From Serpentinimonas barnesii (GTDB lineage: Bacteria > Pseudomonadota > Gammaproteobacteria > Burkholderiales > Burkholderiaceae_C), in the NCBI RefSeq assembly GCF_000696225.1, contig NZ_BAWN01000021.1, forward strand, positions 62,001 to 126,000: a DNA stretch of 64,000 nucleotides. Reading direction: 5' to 3'. Under the pieces are notes generated by a model. That model did not search any database. It was not told where the DNA came from and was given only the letters and a program-made list of their open reading frames with translations. Position numbers and translations under genes: made by a program. Shown here one piece after another: positions 38,466 through 46,827 of the stretch (position 1 is the stretch's first letter; the number at the start of each line of letters is the position of its first letter).

Positions 38466-39221
38466 TCAAGGCGCCGCCGTGGCCCAGCCCATGGCGTCGG
38501 TGATGATGCCATCGACCCCCAGCGCGCGCAGGCGCTGCACGTCGGCAGCGCTGTTGGCGGTGTAGCACAGCACGCGCCAGCCTTGGGCGCGCGCCTGCTG
38601 CATCAGATCGGCGTCGAGCCGGCGCTGCTGGAACACGATGGCCACGCACTGCAACTCGGCCGCCACAGTGGCCCAACCCGCCCAAGGGGTTTCGAGCAGC
38701 AGCGCGCGCGGCAACTCGGGCGCGGCCTGCTGCGCCGCTTGCAGGGCGGCGGGCTGGAAGGAGCTAAGCAATGGCGGCACAGCCTGGCCCTGCCAGAGCT
38801 GGCGCGCCGCCAGCGCCACAGCGTGCCCGGTGGCGGCGTCTTGGCCCGGCATGGGCTTGATTTCGATGTTGAGCGCCGCGCCCTGTTGCTGGCAATAGGA
38901 AGCGATGGTGGCCAGCGTGGGCAGCGGTTCGCCCGCGCAGGCGTCTGAGTGCCAGCCACCGGCGTCGAGCTGCGCCAGTTCGGCCCAAGCCAGTGCATCG
39001 GCTGGGCCGCGGCCTCTGGTGGTGCGGTCCAGCGTGTCGTCGTGCAGCAAAAAGGGCACGCCGTCGGCGCTGAGCTTGACGTCGCACTCAAACATGGCAT
39101 AGCCGCAGGCGCTGCCGTGCTCGAAAGCAATCAGCGTGTTTTCGGGCCGCTCCTTGCCCGCGCCGCGGTGCGCGATCCAGAACGGGTAGGGCCAAGCGGG
39201 AGTGGCGGGGGTGGGGTTCAT
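38466..39221 (-). CDS. ugpQ: Glycerophosphodiester phosphodiesterase
   Basis: A 251-residue cytoplasmic GDPD that releases glycerol-3-phosphate from imported glycerophosphodiesters. The GDPD signature [21 protein letters not shown] holds the catalytic His and metal Glu, with [20 protein letters not shown] and [12 protein letters not shown] completing the site. It has no signal peptide. It follows ugpC by 31 bases, completing ugpBAECQ. Confidence 0.96.
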
Positions 39222-39252
39222 GGCTTGGGCTGGTGCGGTTGCAAATGCAGCT

Positions 39253-40260
<1,008 letters not shown>

Positions 40261-40279
40261 ATGAATTGCATTTTTAAGG

Positions 40280-41140
40280 TTATTTTTCGCTGTCCACCAG
40301 CCCTTTGACGAACCACTTCTGCATCAGCAGCACCACCAGCGCGGGCGGCAGCAGCGCCATCAAGGTGGTGGCCATGACCACGTTCCAGTCGGTGGCGGCG
40401 TCGCCGCTGCCGATCTGCTTGGCGATGCCGACCACGATGGTGTCGAGGTTTTGGTCGGTGACGATGAGCAGCGGCCACAGGTACTGGTTCCAGCCATAAA
40501 CGAACATGATCACAAACAGGGCCGCGAGCTGGGTGCGCGTGAGCGGCAGCACCACGTCCCAGAAAAAGCGCAGCGGCCCGGCGCCGTCCATCTTGGCCGC
40601 CTCTACCAGCTCGTCGGGCAGGGTGAGGAAGAACTGGCGCAGCAGCAAGGTGGCGGTAGCCGAGGCGATCAGAGGCAGCGTCAGGCCGGCGTAGGTGTTG
40701 AGCAGGCCCAGATTGGTGACAACTTCGTAGGTGGGCAAAATGCGCACCTCCACCGGCAGCATGAGCGTGATAAAAATCAGCCAGAAGCAAAAGGTGCGCC
40801 CAGGGAAGCGGAAAAACACCACGGCGTAGGCAGAAATGAGCGAGACCGCGATCTTGCCGACCGCGATCACCAGCGCCATGATCAGGCTGTTGAGCAACAT
40901 CACCCACACCGGCGGCGAGAGGAAATTGCCCTGCATGCCCTCGATCAGCACGCGGCTGTAGTTCTCCCAAGCCTGGTCGCCGGGCAGCATGGGCATGGGG
41001 GCTTGGGCGATTTCGGGGTTGCTGAGGGTGGAGGCCACGAAAGCGATGTAGAGCGGCAAGGCCGTGATGGCCAAGCCGATCCAGATCACGGCATGGGCCA
41101 GAAACTGGCCCGGCATAGCGTGCGAGGGGCTGTGGTTCAT
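40280..41140 (-). CDS. ugpE: sn-Glycerol-3-phosphate ABC transporter permease UgpE
   Basis: A 286-residue inner-membrane permease with six predicted helices. The cytoplasmic EAA loop reads [23 protein letters not shown]. Adjacent [16 protein letters not shown] and [17 protein letters not shown] match UgpE. It lies between ugpA (9-base gap) and ugpC. Confidence 0.95.
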
Positions 41141-41149
41141 GCTCGGCTT

Positions 41150-42034
41150 TTAGGAGTAGTGCACCCGGCGCTCAAGGAAGCGAAACTGCAGCAGCGTCAG
41201 GCCGATCACCATGAGCATGAGCAGCACCGACTGCGCCGCCGAACCGCCGAGGTCGAGCGCGATCATGCCGTCGGTATAGACCTTATAGACCAGTGTTTCG
41301 GTGGCCGCCGCCGGGCCGCCCTGCGTGACGGCGTGGATCACGCCAAAGGTGTCGAAAAAGGCATACACGAGGCCGACCACGAGCAAAAAGAAGGTGGTGG
41401 GCGAGAGCAGCGGGAACACGATGGTGCGAAAGCGCCGCCACGGCCCGGCGCCGTCGATGGCGGCGGCCTCCAGCAGCGATTTTGGAATCGACTGCAAACC
41501 GGCCAAAAAGAACAAGAAGTTGTAGGCCACCTGCTTCCAAGCCGAGGCCAGGATGACCAGCAGCATGGCGTCGCTGCCGTCGAGCGTGGGGTTCCAGTCC
41601 ACCCCCAGCGCCTGCACCCAGTAGGCCACCACGCCGATGGCCGGGTTGAACATGAACAACCACAGCACCCCGGCGATGGCCGGCGCAATGGCGTAGGGAA
41701 TCATGAGCGCGGTGGTGTAGGTGGCGCGCGCGCGCAGCAGGGCGTCGGCGGCCAAGGCCAGCAGCAGCGCGGGCACCATGGCCAGCAGCGTCACGGCGCT
41801 GGCAAACAGCAGCGTGCGCCAGAGCGACTCGTAATAGGCCGGATCGGTGAGCACGGTGTGAAAGTTGTCGAACCCGACAAAACGCACCGACAGGCCGAAG
41901 GGGTCCTGCTCCTGAAAGGCCATCAACAGCGCCTGCAGGCTGGGCCAGATAAAGAAGATCAGCGTGACGACCAGTTGCGGGGCCAGCAAGGCGTAGGGCA
42001 ACCAGCGGTTGGGAAATATGACTTTTCTTTGCAT
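41150..42034 (-). CDS. ugpA: sn-Glycerol-3-phosphate ABC transporter permease UgpA
   Basis: A 294-residue permease with six predicted helices; the EAA loop is [24 protein letters not shown] use the ATG at 42034 ([14 protein letters not shown]), not an in-frame TTG six bases earlier. Its ribosome-binding site GGAGG (42050-42046) lies in the 3' arm of a strong hairpin between ugpB and ugpA, so its translation is probably reduced relative to ugpB. Confidence 0.95.
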
Positions 42035-42039
42035 AAGCA

Positions 42040-42066
42040 AACCCGCCTCCGTAAAGGAGGCGGGTT
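42040..42066 (-). promoter_or_regulatory. Intercistronic hairpin between ugpB and ugpA that encloses the ugpA ribosome-binding site
   Basis: An 11-bp perfect stem (AACCCGCCTCC/GGAGGCGGGTT, 5-base loop TTTAC) begins 26 bases after the ugpB stop and ends 5 bases before the ugpA ATG. The GGAGG in its second arm is the only good Shine-Dalgarno sequence for ugpA. Such elements commonly keep binding protein in excess over permease, by protecting the upstream mRNA end and limiting downstream expression. Confidence 0.75.
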
Positions 42067-42092
42067 ATCAGGTGGCAACCCGGAAAGGGCTA

Positions 42093-43445
42093 TTAGTTGA
42101 CCGAGCGCTCAAAGGCGCGCAGTTGGGCGTTGCCACGGCGCTCGAAGTTCATCAGCGCCTGGGCGGCGGTCTGGCGGCCTTGCAGCGCGCGCTCGACTTC
42201 TTCGTGGTAGATGTCGCGGATCTCGGTCCAGCGGCCAAAGCGGTAGCCTTGGGTGAACTGGCCTTGGCGCGCTTCGATGAGCGAGAGGATGGGCACGTCG
42301 CGGCCCGGGTTCTGGGTGAAGAACCCCGCCTGCTGCATGGCGCGGAAGGAGCTGTTGGTGGCGGGCAGGAAGCCGGTGGTGCGCGCCCATTCGGTCATCA
42401 CGCGGTCGGAGCGCAGGAAGTCGAGGAACATGGCCACGCCGCGCAGCTCGTTGGCGCTGCGGTTGGGGGCGTTGAACACCCACAGCGAGGCGCCGCCGAT
42501 GGTGGTGGCAAAGGGTGCGCCCTGCACATCGGGCCAATGCGGCAACTGGGCGGTGGCGAGCTGGAAGCGGCCGTCGCGCTGGATCGCGGCCAAACCGCCG
42601 GAGGACTGCAACAGCATGGCGCACTGGCCGCTGATGAACTTGGCCGCTGCGTCATTCGAGCGCCCGCCGTAGGAGAAGGCGCGTGTGGCTTGCAAGTCCA
42701 CCAGGGTCTGGATCATGCGCTGGTTGAGCGGGTTGTTGACCGTCAGGCTGGCGCCTGCACCGGCGCGGCCGTTGTCAAGCGTGCCGATCTGCTGGTTGTG
42801 GCGGGCGTTGAACTGCTCCAGCATGATCCAGGCCAGCCAGGTGGTGGTGAAGCCGCATTCGGCGGCGCCGCTGCTGCGAATCTGGTTGGCGGCAGCGATC
42901 ATTTCGGGCCAGGTGCGCGGTGGCCGGTTCGGGTCAAGGCCGGCGCGGCGGAAGGCGTCTTGGTTGTAGAACAGCACCGCAGTCGAGACGTTGAAGGGCA
43001 TCGAGAGCAGGTTGCCGTTGGGCAGGCCGTAGTAGCCACGCGCCGGCGGGATGAAGTCGGCCGGATTGAAGGCAATGCCAGCGCGCTGGAACACCTCGGA
43101 AACCGGAATGATGGCGCCACGCGACTGGACCATGTCGCCCGAACCGGCGTCGAACATCTGCATGATGTGGGGCGGGTTGCCGGCGCGGAAAGCGGCCATG
43201 GCAGCGGCGCGCTGCTCGGGGTACTGGCCACGGAACGAGACCACCACGCGGTACTCGGTCTGGCTGCGGTTGAAGTCTTCACCAAAGCGGCTTAACAACT
43301 CGCCGTTGGGGCCGGTCAGGCCCATCCACATCTGGATTTCGGTGCGCGCCGGTGCTGCTGCAGGTGCCTGCGCTTGCGCAACCACGGCGCTGGAGGCCGC
43401 GGCAAAGGCCAGCGTCAGCGCCAGCAGGTTTTTTTTGAAGGCCAT
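42093..43445 (-). CDS. ugpB: sn-Glycerol-3-phosphate ABC transporter substrate-binding protein
   Basis: A 450-residue periplasmic binding protein for glycerol-3-phosphate and glycerophosphodiesters. A signal peptide (MAFKKNLLALTLAFAAASSA, cleavage near AQAQA) precedes the mature protein. UgpB-type blocks include EIQMWMGLTGPNGELLSRFG, FRAGNPPHIMQMFDAGSGDM, GYYGLPNGNLLSMPFNVST and TTWLAWIMLEQFNARHNQ. The ATG at 43445 follows CAGGAG at good spacing. Three Pho-box-like 7-base repeats lie about 85-110 bases upstream, so phosphate control is likely. Confidence 0.96.
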   Translation of the reverse strand: MAFKKNLLALTLAFAAASSAVVAQAQAPAAAPARTEIQMWMGLTGPNGELLSRFGEDFNRSQTEYRVVVSFRGQYPEQRAAAMAAFRAGNPPHIMQMFDAGSGDMVQSRGAIIPVSEVFQRAGIAFNPADFIPPARGYYGLPNGNLLSMPFNVSTAVLFYNQDAFRRAGLDPNRPPRTWPEMIAAANQIRSSGAAECGFTTTWLAWIMLEQFNARHNQQIGTLDNGRAGAGASLTVNNPLNQRMIQTLVDLQATRAFSYGGRSNDAAAKFISGQCAMLLQSSGGLAAIQRDGRFQLATAQLPHWPDVQGAPFATTIGGASLWVFNAPNRSANELRGVAMFLDFLRSDRVMTEWARTTGFLPATNSSFRAMQQAGFFTQNPGRDVPILSLIEARQGQFTQGYRFGRWTEIRDIYHEEVERALQGRQTAAQALMNFERRGNAQLRAFERSVN

Positions 43446-43523
43446 GCGGATGTGCTCCTGTAACAAGGACGGTATGAACGCAGCCGATCCCAACGACCGG
43501 CTTGTTCTTCGAATTCTGCCAGC

Positions 43524-43557
43524 CCAATATGGCAATCTGATGACTCTAGCATGACAC
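43524..43557 (-). promoter_or_regulatory. Pho box-like promoter of ugpB
   Basis: On the minus strand three 7-mers at 11-base steps read GTGTCAT, GAGTCAT and TTGCCAT (starting at 43557, 43546 and 43535), matching the PhoB half-site CTGTCAT at 6, 5 and 5 of 7 positions. A candidate -10 TATTGG (43529-43524) begins 10 bases after the second repeat, the spacing seen in PhoB-dependent promoters that lack a normal -35. The transcript would have a leader of about 70 bases. Confidence 0.7.
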
Positions 43558-43593
43558 TTGCTTTGCCGCACTTGTCGCAAACCCGTAGCCAAC

Positions 43594-43633
43594 CCTTCAC
43601 AGCTTCTTCATGAATTTGTCACGCCGATGTTAT
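43594..43633 (+). promoter_or_regulatory. Pho box-like array before the glycosyltransferase gene
   Basis: Four 7-mers at exact 11-base steps, CCTTCAC, TCTTCAT, TTGTCAC and ATGTTAT (43594, 43605, 43616, 43627), match CTGTCAT/C at 5, 4, 6 and 5 positions, and TTGTCGC at 43572 fits the same phase. The array ends only 14 bases before the proposed start codon, so the leader must be short or the upstream repeats must be the ones used. Confidence 0.65.
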
Positions 43634-43647
43634 GCAGGCGTTCGATC

Positions 43648-44862
43648 ATGGGAGGCATGAACGCCCTGGACCCCTTCCCGCTTCTGATCGACGACTTTCC
43701 GCGCACCCCGCGCTCGTTGCGGGTGGCGCTGGTGAGCGAAACCTACCCGCCCGAAATCAACGGCGTGGCGCTGACCATGGAGCGGCTGGTGCTGGGCTTG
43801 CAAGCGCGCCAGCACGACCTGCAAGTGGTGCGCCCACGCCAAGCCCGATCTGAACAACCTGCTGCACAAACGGGCCTGGAGCAGGTGCTGATGCGCAGCC
43901 TGCCAATTCCCAACTACCCCCAGATCCGCTTTGGGCTGCCCGCCAAGAGCGCCCTGCTGCGGCTGTGGTCGCTGCGTCGGCCCGACTTGGTGCACATTGC
44001 CACCGAGGGGCCGCTGGGCTGGTCGGCGCTGCAGGCGGCGCGCAAGCTCAAGCTGCCGGTCAGCACCGACTTTCACACCAACTTTCACGCCTACAGCCGC
44101 CACTACGGCGTGGGCTGGCTGCAAAAGCCGATTGCGGCCTATTTGCGCAAGTTCCACAACTCTGCCGACTGCACCCTGGTGCCCACCACCGAACTGCAAG
44201 CGCAACTGCAAGCGCTGGGTTTTGAGCGCCTGCTGGTGATCGGGCGCGGCGTCGAGACGCAGCGCTTTCATCCGGCCAAACGCAGCGCGGCCTTGCGCGC
44301 CCAGTGGGGCGTGGGCGAGCGCGACTGCGTGGCCCTGTTCGTGAGCCGCTTGGCCCCCGAAAAAAACCTGGTCTTGCTGGCGCAGGCCCATGCGGCCATG
44401 CAGCAGGCCCAGCCCGCTTGCAAATTGGTGGTGGTGGGCGACGGGCCGGCGCGCGGCCAGTTGCAGGCGCTGGCCCCGGCGGCGCTGCTGTGCGGCATGC
44501 AAACCGGCGAGGAACTGGCCACCCACTATGCCAGCGCCGACGTGTTCTTGTTCCCCAGCCAGACCGAAACCTATGGCAACGTCATCCCCGAGGCCATGGC
44601 CAGCGGACTGGCGGTGCTGGCCTACCGCTACGCCGCCCCGGCCGAGCTGATCGATTCGGGCCACAACGGCGTGCTGGTTCCCTTTGGCGACACGGCCGTT
44701 TTCATCGAACAGGCGCGGCAACTGGCGGCGCAGCCCGAGCGCGTGCAGGCCTTGCGGCTGGCGGCGCGCGAACGGGCCAAGGCCCTCGACTGGGGCCAGA
44801 TCGTGCAGCAAACCGAGGCCTTGTGGCTGCAAATGGTCAGCACGGGCCCGGGCAGCGCCTAA
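43648..44862 (+). CDS. GT4-family glycosyltransferase, probable diacylglycerol glycosyltransferase (lipid remodelling)
   Basis: A GT-B fold glycosyltransferase of about 404 residues. Near the N-terminus LRVALVSETYPPEINGVALTME is typical of GT4 lipid and sulfolipid glycosyltransferases. VHIATEGPLGWSAL, STDFHTNFHAYSRHYG and the donor-site motif FPSQTETYGNVIPEAMASGL (EX7E) follow. The start is ambiguous: ATG 43648 or ATG 43657, the latter with GGAGG only one base away. Position between a Pho box and olsB plus a PlcP-like gene suggests it glycosylates diacylglycerol during phosphate starvation, like Agt enzymes of alphaproteobacteria. A mannosyl- or sulfoquinovosyltransferase role is possible. 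Confidence 0.8.
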   Translation: MGGMNALDPFPLLIDDFPRTPRSLRVALVSETYPPEINGVALTMERLVLGLQARQHDLQVVRPRQARSEQPAAQTGLEQVLMRSLPIPNYPQIRFGLPAKSALLRLWSLRRPDLVHIATEGPLGWSALQAARKLKLPVSTDFHTNFHAYSRHYGVGWLQKPIAAYLRKFHNSADCTLVPTTELQAQLQALGFERLLVIGRGVETQRFHPAKRSAALRAQWGVGERDCVALFVSRLAPEKNLVLLAQAHAAMQQAQPACKLVVVGDGPARGQLQALAPAALLCGMQTGEELATHYASADVFLFPSQTETYGNVIPEAMASGLAVLAYRYAAPAELIDSGHNGVLVPFGDTAVFIEQARQLAAQPERVQALRLAARERAKALDWGQIVQQTEALWLQMVSTGPGSA

Positions 44863-44926
44863 GCGCGCTGCGCCGCCAAACTTTAAGCGCTACATCCCGT
44901 CGGTTGCGCCGTGCGATGCCGCTTAG

Positions 44927-44944
44927 GCAGCGCACCGGCGCTGC
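44927..44944 (+). terminator. Weak hairpin after the glycosyltransferase gene
   Basis: A 7-bp stem GCAGCGC/GCGCTGC with loop ACCG lies 64 bases after the stop and before the olsB promoter. There is no U-tract, so termination would be weak or factor-assisted. Confidence 0.35.
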
Positions 44945-44985
44945 TGTAAGCCAATGAAAGATTGATGGATTCTGATTTTGTGCGC

Positions 44986-45014
44986 TTGTCACGATTTATT
45001 CATGCGACTGCCAT
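44986..45014 (+). promoter_or_regulatory. Pho box-like array before olsB
   Basis: Three 7-mers at 11-base steps, TTGTCAC (44986), TATTCAT (44997) and CTGCCAT (45008), match the PhoB half-site at 6, 4 and 6 of 7 positions. They lie 50-80 bases before the olsB start. No convincing -10 is visible at the expected place. Confidence 0.6.
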
Positions 45015-45064
45015 TGGGGGGACACACAGCGAGCGAAAAATCGAGCCACGAAGGAGCTACACCC

Positions 45065-45877
45065 ATGACCGATTTGTCTGTGCTGGAAAAACTGCGTCAG
45101 CCCCAGGGGCTTGGCCTACAGCCGGTGGCGCCGCGCTCTGCGGCTTGCCTGCCTGCCCCCATCAGCGTGGGCTGGGCCCGCCACACCGACGAGGTGCGCG
45201 CCGCGCAGCGCTTGCGCTACCTGGTTTTTGCCGAAGAAATGGGCGCCCGCCTGCCGCAGACCCTACCCGGCCACGACATCGATTTGTTCGACGATTTTTG
45301 CGAACACCTGCTGGTGCGCGACGCCGCCAGCGAGCAGGTGATCGGCACCTACCGCGTGCTCACCCCCACCCAAGCCCAGCGCGTGGGCGGTTTTTACAGC
45401 GAGACCGAATTCGACCTGACGCGGCTGCGCCTGCTGCGCGAGCAGATGGTGGAGCTGGGCCGCAGTTGCGTGCACCCGCAGCACCGCCACGGCGGCGTGA
45501 TTTTGGCGCTGTGGGGCGCGCTGGCCGAGTTCATGACGCGCAACCGCCTGCACACCATGATCGGCTGCGCCAGCATCCCCATGAACCCCGAGTCCGGCGG
45601 CGGCCACGCCGCAGCCAGCATCTGGCGCCAGTTGAGCGCCAAGCACCTGGCTTCGGTCGAATTTCATGTGCGCCCGCGCCTGCCGCTGCCGATCGAGCAG
45701 CTTGATGCCTCGCTGCAAGTCGAACCGCCGGCGCTCATCAAAGGCTACCTGCGCCTGGGCACCAAGGTGCTGGGTCCGCCAGCTTGGGACCCAGACTTCA
45801 ATTCCGCCGATCTGCCCATGATGATGCGCCTAGCCGACCTACCACCGCGCTACCGCAAGCACTGGCTGGGGGCCTGA
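45065..45877 (+). CDS. olsB: L-ornithine N-alpha-acyltransferase (OlsB-like GNAT)
   Basis: A 270-residue GNAT-fold acyltransferase that would attach a 3-hydroxyacyl chain from ACP to ornithine, giving lyso-ornithine lipid. Family blocks are RAAQRLRYLVFAEEMGA, DIDLFDDFCEHLLVRD, VIGTYRVLTP, FDLTRLRLLREQMVELGRSC and the LWGALAEFM/IGCASIPM region. The ATG at 45065 follows AGGAG at ideal spacing. It overlaps the metallophosphoesterase start (TGATG) and has a Pho box-like array upstream, as expected for phosphate-free ornithine lipids. No OlsA O-acyltransferase gene lies beside it. Confidence 0.85.
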   Translation: MTDLSVLEKLRQPQGLGLQPVAPRSAACLPAPISVGWARHTDEVRAAQRLRYLVFAEEMGARLPQTLPGHDIDLFDDFCEHLLVRDAASEQVIGTYRVLTPTQAQRVGGFYSETEFDLTRLRLLREQMVELGRSCVHPQHRHGGVILALWGALAEFMTRNRLHTMIGCASIPMNPESGGGHAAASIWRQLSAKHLASVEFHVRPRLPLPIEQLDASLQVEPPALIKGYLRLGTKVLGPPAWDPDFNSADLPMMMRLADLPPRYRKHWLGA

Positions 45878-46827
45878 TGCGCAGCGGCTTTGCCCCCGAC
45901 ACCCACCTGCAAGGGCTGTTGGCGGCCGGGGTGGCCACGGCTCCGGCTGCGGCTGCACCGGACGACCCGCGTTCCACCGACGACGACGGCGACGGCGACG
46001 ACGCGCTGCATGCCTCGGGGCGGCGCTTGCGCACGGTGTTCATCTCTGATATCCATCTGGGCACGGCGGGCTGCCAGGCCAAGGCGCTGCTGGCTTTTTT
46101 GAAGGCGCACCCGAGCGAGAAGCTGTATCTGGTGGGCGACATCATCGACGGCTGGCAGTTGCGCCGCAAGTGGTTCTGGCCGCAGAGCCACAACGACGTG
46201 GTGCAAAAAATTCTGCGCCGCGCCCGCAAGGGCTGCAAGGTGATTTACGTGCCGGGCAACCACGACGAGTTTGCGCGCCATTTCATCGGCCACCAGTTTG
46301 GCGGCGTGGAGGTGGTGGAAGACGCCCTGCACCTGACGGCCGACGGCAAAAAGCTGTGGGTCATCCATGGCGACCACTTCGACGGCGTGATCCAGTACGC
46401 CAAGTGGCTGGCCTACCTGGCCGACAACCTGTACGAGCTGGCGCTGCGCCTGAATACGCGCTTCAACTCGCTGCGCGCGCGGCTGGGGCTGCCGTACTGG
46501 TCGTTGTCGCAGTATTTGAAGTACAGCGTCAAGGGCGCGGTCAAATACATTCAGCAGTTCGAGCGCGCCGTGGCCCACGAGGCGCGCAAACGCGGCTTCG
46601 ACGGCGTGATCTGCGGCCACATCCACCACGCCGAAATCCGCGACATCGACGGCATCTTGTACTGCAACGACGGCGACTGGGTCGAGAGCCTGACGGCGCT
46701 GGTCGAGCACCACGACGGGCGGCTGGAGATCGTGCACTGGCCCAGCGGGCACAAAACCCTTGGCACGGCGGAGAAGGCGCGCAGCAACGCCAACGCCCGC
46801 GCCACCAACCACGCCGTCAGCGGATGA
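45877..46827 (+). CDS. Calcineurin-like metallophosphoesterase, PlcP/LpxH-like
   Basis: A 316-residue metallophosphoesterase with all metal motifs: FISDIHLG (Asp58, His60), VGDIIDGW, VPGNHDE, VIHGDHFD and ICGHIHHAEI. The first 50 residues are a low-complexity acidic extension (DDDGDGDD). Proteins of this type are usually annotated as UDP-2,3-diacylglucosamine hydrolases, but a clade named PlcP is a phospholipase C that makes diacylglycerol during phosphate starvation and is paired with a glycosyltransferase. Its start overlaps olsB (TGATG) and a lipid-type glycosyltransferase is two genes upstream, so PlcP is the better guess; LpxH2-like activity cannot be excluded. It overlaps the convergent aldehyde dehydrogenase by 11 bases. 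Confidence 0.78.
   Translation: MRSGFAPDTHLQGLLAAGVATAPAAAAPDDPRSTDDDGDGDDALHASGRRLRTVFISDIHLGTAGCQAKALLAFLKAHPSEKLYLVGDIIDGWQLRRKWFWPQSHNDVVQKILRRARKGCKVIYVPGNHDEFARHFIGHQFGGVEVVEDALHLTADGKKLWVIHGDHFDGVIQYAKWLAYLADNLYELALRLNTRFNSLRARLGLPYWSLSQYLKYSVKGAVKYIQQFERAVAHEARKRGFDGVICGHIHHAEIRDIDGILYCNDGDWVESLTALVEHHDGRLEIVHWPSGHKTLGTAEKARSNANARATNHAVSG

Follow-up and report, generated by a model that had tools for sequence, protein, structure and literature searches.

A predicted Pho-controlled membrane-remodelling locus of Serpentinimonas, with an Agt2-type glycosyltransferase gene, an overlapping olsB-plcP pair and the adjoining ugp operon

Does a compact group of genes in Serpentinimonas barnesii form a system by which membrane phospholipids are replaced when phosphate is scarce, and does the glycerol-3-phosphate uptake operon lying beside it belong to the same system? 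The question is raised by a stretch of 64,000 nucleotides (contig C74; hereafter the window), in which a plus-strand trio within positions 43657-46827, consisting of a glycosyltransferase gene (gt4), olsB and plcP, is divergent from the minus-strand genes ugpBAECQ, with 211 bp between ugpB and gt4. Including the ugp operon, the cluster extends over 38466-46827, and a convergent aldehyde dehydrogenase gene lies downstream of plcP. An earlier sequence-only reading of the window had described three plus-strand genes facing the ugp operon across an intergenic region and a TGATG overlap joining olsB to plcP; gene calls and protein family models agree with the former, and the latter is present in the sequence, where the olsB stop codon TGA (45875-45877) overlaps the plcP start codon ATG (45877-45879) by one base. 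It is highly likely, in our assessment, that in Serpentinimonas the cluster serves membrane remodelling under PhoB control and comprises three Pho-box units. The gene identities, the tree clades, the enrichment of Pho-box-like arrays, the conservation of the locus and the failure to find a gene of the UDP-glucose dehydrogenase (ugd) family are established here.

The link to phosphate starvation, which the sequence-only reading had suggested, is strengthened by Pho-box-like arrays that precede all three units. Arrays were scored on both strands of the window as three CTGTCAY 7-mers with an 11-bp period (maximum score 21), the pair consensus being that of a Pseudomonas aeruginosa study (PMC8528852), and the pstS upstream region of the same genome served as a positive control. 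Just four triple positions in the window scored at least 15/21, all of them in the two gaps of the cluster, which make up 413 of the 64,000 bases, and shuffles of each gap equalled the observed triple score in 0.3% of cases. Alignments showed that the core of the gt4 array (TTCAT..TGTCAC..TGTTAY) is conserved in three genomes of the genus and that the 11-bp-spaced core of the olsB array (GTCAY..TCAT..TGCCAT) is conserved in the olsB upstream regions of five genomes. A broader test used 47 loci of relatives with same-strand olsB-plcP pairs, an olsB match of at least 200 amino acids (aa) and enough upstream DNA; a score of at least 16 was reached in 19 of them, compared with at most one in any of 40 shuffled sets, which were the control used for these regions, random-locus controls being mostly coding. 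Among periods from 7 to 15, only 11 stood out in the relatives (mean 14.85 vs 12.3-12.9). PhoB itself is encoded in the genome (322.9 bits, above the cut-off of 296.2) and adjoins pstSCAB, and both PlcP and OlsAB have been reported to be PhoBR-dependent in Pseudomonas putida (PMC5082522). The cluster is thus very probably a Pho-controlled lipid-remodelling locus. Because the 202-bp gap between gt4 and olsB carries its own Pho-box-like array, separate from the others, ugpBAECQ, gt4 and olsB-plcP are probably three transcription units rather than one operon, and a single gt4-olsB-plcP operon is unlikely.

The phosphoesterase is assigned by sequence to the PlcP family and is a predicted phospholipase C. 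It shares 55.7% identity with the protein of the P. aeruginosa plcP-agt1 locus, presumably PA3219 by its neighbourhood, and 55.8% with a Sinorhizobium meliloti protein encoded beside genes for an acyl-homoserine lactone synthase and LuxR, presumably SMc00171 on the same grounds. Its identity to LpxH was 25.6% over 121 aa for the Escherichia coli enzyme and 26.8% over 127 aa for the LpxH encoded by the genome itself. The placement of the protein among PlcP and LpxH sequences agreed with the PlcP type named in the sequence-only reading: two LpxH sequences were split from 21 others, including those of the window, P. aeruginosa and S. meliloti, with support of 100/100. The motif set of calcineurin-type metal sites (DxH, GDxxD, GNHD and GHxH) is found in full, as SDIHL, GDIID, GNHDEF and GHIHHA, whereas LpxH has GNRDFL and GHTHRP in place of the last two. 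LpxH models matched the window protein at only 49.0 and 40.0 bits against cut-offs of 134 and 190.35, while a separate LpxH gene elsewhere in the genome scored 190.1 bits, slightly below the cut-off of 190.35, compared with 40.4 for PlcP.

The glycosyltransferase gene is classed as Agt2-type, an orthologue of PA0842 that is predicted to encode a diacylglycerol glycosyltransferase. In the plasmid collection its closest relative, with 50.7% identity over 369 aa, was a glycosyltransferase encoded beside plcR and plcH in a P. aeruginosa record and presumably, from that position, PA0842 (Agt2); identity to P. aeruginosa Agt1 was 35.1%. A tree split supported at 100/100 placed gt4, its orthologues and the plcR-plcH-linked enzyme on one side, and Agt1 together with ten sampled glycosyltransferases encoded directly after plcP in Burkholderiales on the other, although the position of Agt2 inside its own side was not resolved. 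On the split and the match scores, an Agt1 identity is rejected. An Agt1-type gene is probably absent from the window genome altogether, because the next-best match to gt4 there was 41.6 bits, whereas Agt1-type genes of other genomes match gt4 at 142-166 bits. The lipid-type GT4 enzyme of the sequence-only reading can therefore be specified, by tree and closest relative, as the diacylglycerol-using type; its pairing of plcP with a glycosyltransferase held in that such a gene is present, but the gene is of the Agt2 type, whereas in many relatives the gene immediately downstream of plcP is of the Agt1 type.

The sugar donor may differ from that of the pseudomonad enzyme. The Agt2 enzyme of P. 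aeruginosa uses UDP-glucuronate to form glucuronosyl-diacylglycerol and can also use UDP-glucose to a degree (PMC8528852). No protein of the ugd family (PF03721) was found in the window genome (G000) or in another Serpentinimonas genome (G002), whereas 13 of 14 control genomes contained one, and the single TIGR03026 match in G000 reached 20.8 bits, far below its cut-off of 189.8. Because no ugd was found, the gt4 product probably draws on UDP-glucose or a different neutral nucleotide sugar as donor, and a neutral glycolipid is predicted; gt4 is accordingly not classed as a glucuronosyltransferase gene, no ugd supply having been detected. In Tepidicella and in the third Serpentinimonas genome (G001), ugd lies between gt4 and olsB, but the G001 copy (locus L142, 9602-10864) has lost 40 residues of the NAD-binding domain that are present in both aligned proteins, and its product is therefore probably non-functional. 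A damaged ugd in G001 and none found in G000 or G002 give the appearance of a stepwise loss of UDP-glucuronate supply in Serpentinimonas.

The acyltransferase most likely starts the synthesis of an acyl-amino-acid lipid, ornithine lipid, as judged from its models. The two top NCBIfam models were both OlsB (155.1 and 150.3 bits), and the S. meliloti protein to which it is 35% identical is itself OlsB by model (511.5 bits), so that the ornithine N-acyltransferase of the sequence-only reading is retained as OlsB-like; a sequence search of the Protein Data Bank with this protein gave no useful match. As had also been noted, no olsA adjoins the cluster. Three PF01553 proteins were found in the genome, and the one on contig C80, which matched OlsA models best, is a candidate OlsA with 32-46% identity to acyltransferases adjoining olsB in five other loci.

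Table 1. Features of the cluster, with positions in the window and the evidence for each assignment
Feature	Position	Strand	Evidence
ugpQ, glycerophosphodiester phosphodiesterase	38466..39221	-	NF006989, 322.7 bits, above cut-off 264
ugpC, ATP-binding cassette (ABC) ATPase	39253..40260	-	NF008653, 506.4 bits, above cut-off 432
ugpE, permease	40280..41140	-	NF008210, 413.2 bits, above cut-off 297
ugpA, permease	41150..42040	-	NF007852, 379.1 bits, above cut-off 335
ugpB, sn-glycerol-3-phosphate binding protein	42093..43445	-	NF008211, 397.1 bits, slightly below cut-off 411
Pho-box-like array before ugpB	43529..43557	-	three 7-mers, 16/21, joint top in window
Pho-box-like array before gt4	43594..43633	+	overlapping triples at 43594 and 43605, 15/21 each, ranks 3 and 4
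gt4, predicted Agt2-type GT4 diacylglycerol glycosyltransferase	43657..44862	+	Pfam GT4 domains; 50.7% identity to P. aeruginosa plcR-plcH-linked glycosyltransferase; tree
Pho-box-like array before olsB	44986..45014	+	16/21, joint top in window
olsB, OlsB-like N-acyltransferase (GNAT)	45065..45877	+	PF13444, 126.6 bits; top two NCBIfam models are OlsB
TGATG stop/start overlap of olsB and plcP	45875..45879	+	sequence
plcP, PlcP-family metal-dependent phospholipase C (predicted activity)	45877..46827	+	identities, GNHD motif, tree

Taken together, these assignments suggest a scheme in which the activities of the enzymes, the sugar used, the binding of PhoB and the induction are inferred. Under scarce phosphate, PhoB would bind the 11-bp-repeat boxes before ugpBAECQ, gt4 and olsB-plcP. 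PlcP would then hydrolyse phospholipids on the cytoplasmic side, yielding diacylglycerol and a phosphorylated head group, and the Agt2-type enzyme would add a sugar to the diacylglycerol to form a glycolipid, probably from UDP-glucose or another neutral nucleotide sugar. In parallel, OlsB would initiate an acyl-amino-acid lipid, most likely ornithine lipid, to be completed by an OlsA encoded elsewhere, and Ugp would take up external glycerol-3-phosphate and glycerophosphodiesters as an independent source of phosphorus. The Ugp system imports solutes from outside the cell, whereas PlcP is described as intracellular (PMC5082522), and the connection between them is therefore more likely to be one of shared regulation than of substrate flow. 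Recycling of PlcP products by Ugp is unlikely on this topology, and the single loop of the sequence-only reading, in which phospholipid is degraded and its glycerophosphate recovered, is not upheld.

The distribution of the arrangement was surveyed at two levels, namely the best 80 of 487 relatives' loci (78 mapped, 47 used in the Pho-box test) and 149 whole genomes, many of them drafts in which distances are visible only within a contig. The layout is kept in all three Serpentinimonas genomes searched and is therefore not an accident of one assembly. In the loci, olsB lay no more than 1.5 kb from plcP in 50 of 80 (49 on the same strand), the exact one-base overlap recurred in 35 of the 49 same-strand pairs, and a glycosyltransferase 28-36% identical to gt4 followed plcP directly in 37 of 80. 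Among the 149 genomes, plcP was present in 93 and together with olsB in 84, the two being adjacent on one strand in 30, of which 29 belonged to the 63 of the window's own family; a gt4 orthologue of at least 300 bits was found in 46 genomes and within 10 kb of plcP in 20. In Tepidicella, which is outside the whole-genome set, about 4.5 kb separate ugpB from gt4 and about 8 kb separate it from plcP; ppk2, psd, an aminotransferase gene and one unassigned gene occupy the interval between ugpB and gt4. The coupling of olsB and plcP is thus widespread, whereas linkage to ugp is restricted in range, although the looser version in Tepidicella shows that it predates the genus. The claim that ugp and the lipid genes form one module is not upheld as worded, the ugp junction being confined, among the genomes surveyed, to Serpentinimonas with the looser version in Tepidicella. 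Labels of the neighbouring genes (pst, ppk1, sixA-like, ppx, psd, aminotransferase, ugd, major facilitator superfamily (MFS), ppk2) were confirmed by models, while a DUF962 label was not upheld (no Pfam match at 1e-5).

Polyphosphate genes are a further recurrent neighbour of the pair: ppk1 was mapped in 40 loci and lay within 3 kb in 38. In the window genome, ppk1, sixA and ppx are found together elsewhere, and no match to olsB, plcP or agt was detected in that 12-kb stretch. On a 3.9-kb contig of genome G059, ugd, olsB-plcP and ppk1 are consecutive, with no space for a glycosyltransferase gene between plcP and ppk1. The separate ppk1-sixA-ppx group of the window genome and the gene order in G059 suggest that the olsB-plcP pair has moved away from the polyphosphate locus. 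In Comamonadaceae (L013, L017, L064 and others), olsB-plcP-agt1 often occurs with ppk1, a sixA-like gene and ppx, in some cases followed by pst genes, and such loci unite membrane remodelling, polyphosphate and phosphate uptake.

Several observations weigh against the proposed locus as a whole. The product of gt4 scored below the NCBIfam cut-offs, OlsB below its cut-offs of 350 and 320 (hence the label OlsB-like), and the candidate OlsA on contig C80 reached 152.4 and 117.6 bits with OlsA models whose cut-off is 300; both the PlcP and the glycosyltransferase trees were flagged by the tool for long branches. Scored as pairs only, the two gaps of the cluster were weak (P 0.05 and 0.18), 28 of the 47 olsB upstream regions of relatives scored below 16, and no Pho box was seen upstream of the candidate olsA (best triple 14) or, clearly, upstream of ugpB and gt4 in Tepidicella (P 0.087 and 0.967). 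Different identities for single enzymes would also alter the picture. Public annotation names proteins of this kind UDP-2,3-diacylglucosamine diphosphatase, a sequence search found no solved relatives other than LpxH, and LpxH models do match weakly (40-49 bits), which would make the neighbouring glycosyltransferase and acyltransferase genes part of an envelope polysaccharide or lipid A group; this is very improbable and largely refuted, given a separate LpxH gene in the genome, identities of 26-27% to LpxH vs 56% to PlcP, the different motifs and tree placement, and a glycosyltransferase that clusters with Agt2. An LpxH identity of the phosphoesterase is accordingly rejected. That gt4 makes an acidic glucuronosyl-diacylglycerol like P. 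aeruginosa Agt2, with UDP-glucuronate from an unrecognised route, is unlikely: the orthology with Agt2 favours it, as does the presence of ugd beside gt4 in Tepidicella and, as a damaged copy, in G001 (6 of the 47 loci have ugd no more than 6 kb from gt4), but the want of any PF03721 protein in G000 and G002, the poor TIGR03026 match and the deletion in the G001 gene argue for a neutral product. The acyltransferase could make another acyl-amino-acid lipid such as glutamine lipid, whose synthesis is described in marine bacteria (PMC6298996), the remainder of the scheme being as proposed. Its distance from S. meliloti OlsB and its scores below the OlsB cut-offs would fit; ornithine lipid is preferred on the two best curated models, the model identity of the S. 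meliloti protein and the OlsA-type acyltransferase that adjoins the olsB orthologue in several betaproteobacterial loci, and another aminolipid is to be regarded as improbable.

The place of ugp is harder to judge. Chance gene loss or rearrangement may have brought it beside the lipid genes, with gt4 and olsB-plcP forming one unit and ugp another, each under its own Pho box, and this account falls just short of an even chance. The rarity of the junction, which also counts against the wider proposal, points that way: ugpB lay within 20 kb of plcP on one contig in only 3 of 53 genomes having both, all Serpentinimonas, under a loose UgpB cut-off with which just 7 of 73 genomes matched at 63% identity or more, the rest (36-46%) perhaps not being orthologues. 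When only these seven are considered, six have plcP and three of the six are Serpentinimonas. Moreover, every unit has its own array, the PlcP products and the Ugp substrates are on opposite sides of the membrane, and the loss of the four genes that separate ugpB from gt4 in Tepidicella could create the junction. The opposite view, that ugp belongs to the Pho-controlled locus, draws on the layout kept in all three genomes of the genus at glycosyltransferase identities of 80-94%, on the single 211-bp control region shared by ugpB and gt4, and on the looser Tepidicella linkage, which implies that the linkage predates the genus.

The components of the locus are known from other systems; what looks new is that an Agt2-type gene, olsB-plcP and ugp are arranged together, that olsB-plcP coupling with Pho-box-like arrays is so widespread and that glucuronate supply has apparently been lost. 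The PlcP-Agt1/Agt2 system of P. aeruginosa (PA3219-PA3218 and PA0842; PMC8528852) shares the PlcP family, the Agt2 orthologue, Pho boxes and a phosphate-starvation logic, but Serpentinimonas has no detected Agt1-type glycosyltransferase or ugd, and its Agt2-type gene lies beside olsB-plcP and ugp, whereas in the P. aeruginosa records agt2 adjoins plcR-plcH and plcP is followed by agt1. Two of these records, L199 with agt2 and plcR-plcH and L201 with plcP-agt1, carry a plasmid label (847 kb and 96 kb); the genes may accordingly be plasmid-borne. Marine plcP-agt and plcP-btaAB neighbourhoods (PMC4796936) likewise combine plcP, an adjoining surrogate-lipid gene and a Pho box; that study names glycolipid and betaine-lipid genes, olsB being absent from its main text, whereas the window plcP is overlapped by olsB. 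Neighbourhoods of PlcP with agt or btaAB have also been described in methanotrophs (PMC9239053). Within the present survey, the Comamonadaceae olsB-plcP-agt1-ppk1-sixA locus has the same overlap and Pho-box-like arrays, but the Serpentinimonas pair is away from polyphosphate genes and has an Agt2-type neighbour, no Agt1-type gene being found. In comparison with the OlsBA ornithine-lipid pathway of S. meliloti, an OlsB-type acyltransferase is shared, but the window olsB has no adjoining olsA and the identity is only 35%. The ugp genes match the known uptake operon, with ugpA, ugpE, ugpC and ugpQ above the curated cut-offs and ugpB slightly below, but share a control region with a lipid glycosyltransferase gene. 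Among the matches listed by searches of the open-access literature, judged by title and the start of the abstract and with subscription papers mostly outside their scope, none described the olsB-plcP overlap or lipid remodelling in Serpentinimonas.

The natural setting gives the prediction its interest. Serpentinimonas are hyperalkaliphiles from the serpentinite springs of The Cedars, and relatives of theirs reportedly dominate a variety of serpentinizing sites on land (PMC8513617); the literature examined on The Cedars yielded no phosphate value. In serpentinite fluids of Samail, phospholipids were only about one in a hundred (1%) of the intact polar lipids, and ornithine-type lipids occurred in all fluids, while the authors attributed the dominant diether glycolipids to archaea and sulfate reducers (PMC10667739). 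A 2022 study called the use of phosphorus in alkaline serpentinizing systems a subject that had not been addressed before (PMC9426474). The locus supplies named genes, in a cultured genus, for a possible life with little lipid phosphorus in such springs, together with the sharp prediction that the glycolipid is neutral, not acidic, and the olsB-plcP coupling with Pho-box-like arrays extends across many Burkholderiales.

The neighbourhoods of gt4 orthologues hint at an older history. They were examined in 47 loci: that of Tepidicella and a single one for every genome, 46 in all, whose match reached at least 300 bits (the survey left out second copies in G103, G032 and G048). Within 6 kb of gt4 were found genes for PAP2 phosphatase (16 loci) and diacylglycerol kinase (dgkA; 9), olsB (15), olsA (8), plcP (18), phosphatidylserine decarboxylase (21), class III aminotransferase (25) and ugd (6), and dgkA, PAP2, olsB and olsA were all near gt4 in four loci (L155, L156, L157 and L159), with the order olsA-olsB-dgkA-gt4-PAP2 on one strand in L155. 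Because enzymes that make or use diacylglycerol repeatedly flank gt4, diacylglycerol is supported as its probable acceptor independently of the Agt2 orthology. A tentative proposal, somewhat less likely than not, is that an old betaproteobacterial module joins a glycolipid synthase of the Agt2 type to ornithine-lipid genes and draws its diacylglycerol from PAP2 (dgkA-gt4-PAP2-olsB-olsA) or from PlcP; Serpentinimonas would then have the PlcP version beside ugp and without glucuronate supply, giving a neutral glycolipid and a zwitterionic aminolipid suited to phosphate-poor water of pH 11. In other families of the order (L155 8026-11950, L154, L156-L159, L172 and L173), dgkA-gt4-PAP2, often with pfkB, clusters with olsB-olsA, which resembles a dual glycolipid and ornithine-lipid module in which PAP2 replaces PlcP. 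Elsewhere in Burkholderiales (L002 2759-6161, L160, L161, L164, L167 and others), gt4 often occurs with a phosphatidylserine decarboxylase paralogue, a class III aminotransferase, a protein without a Pfam match and an MFS transporter, a neighbourhood possibly concerned with another lipid head group.

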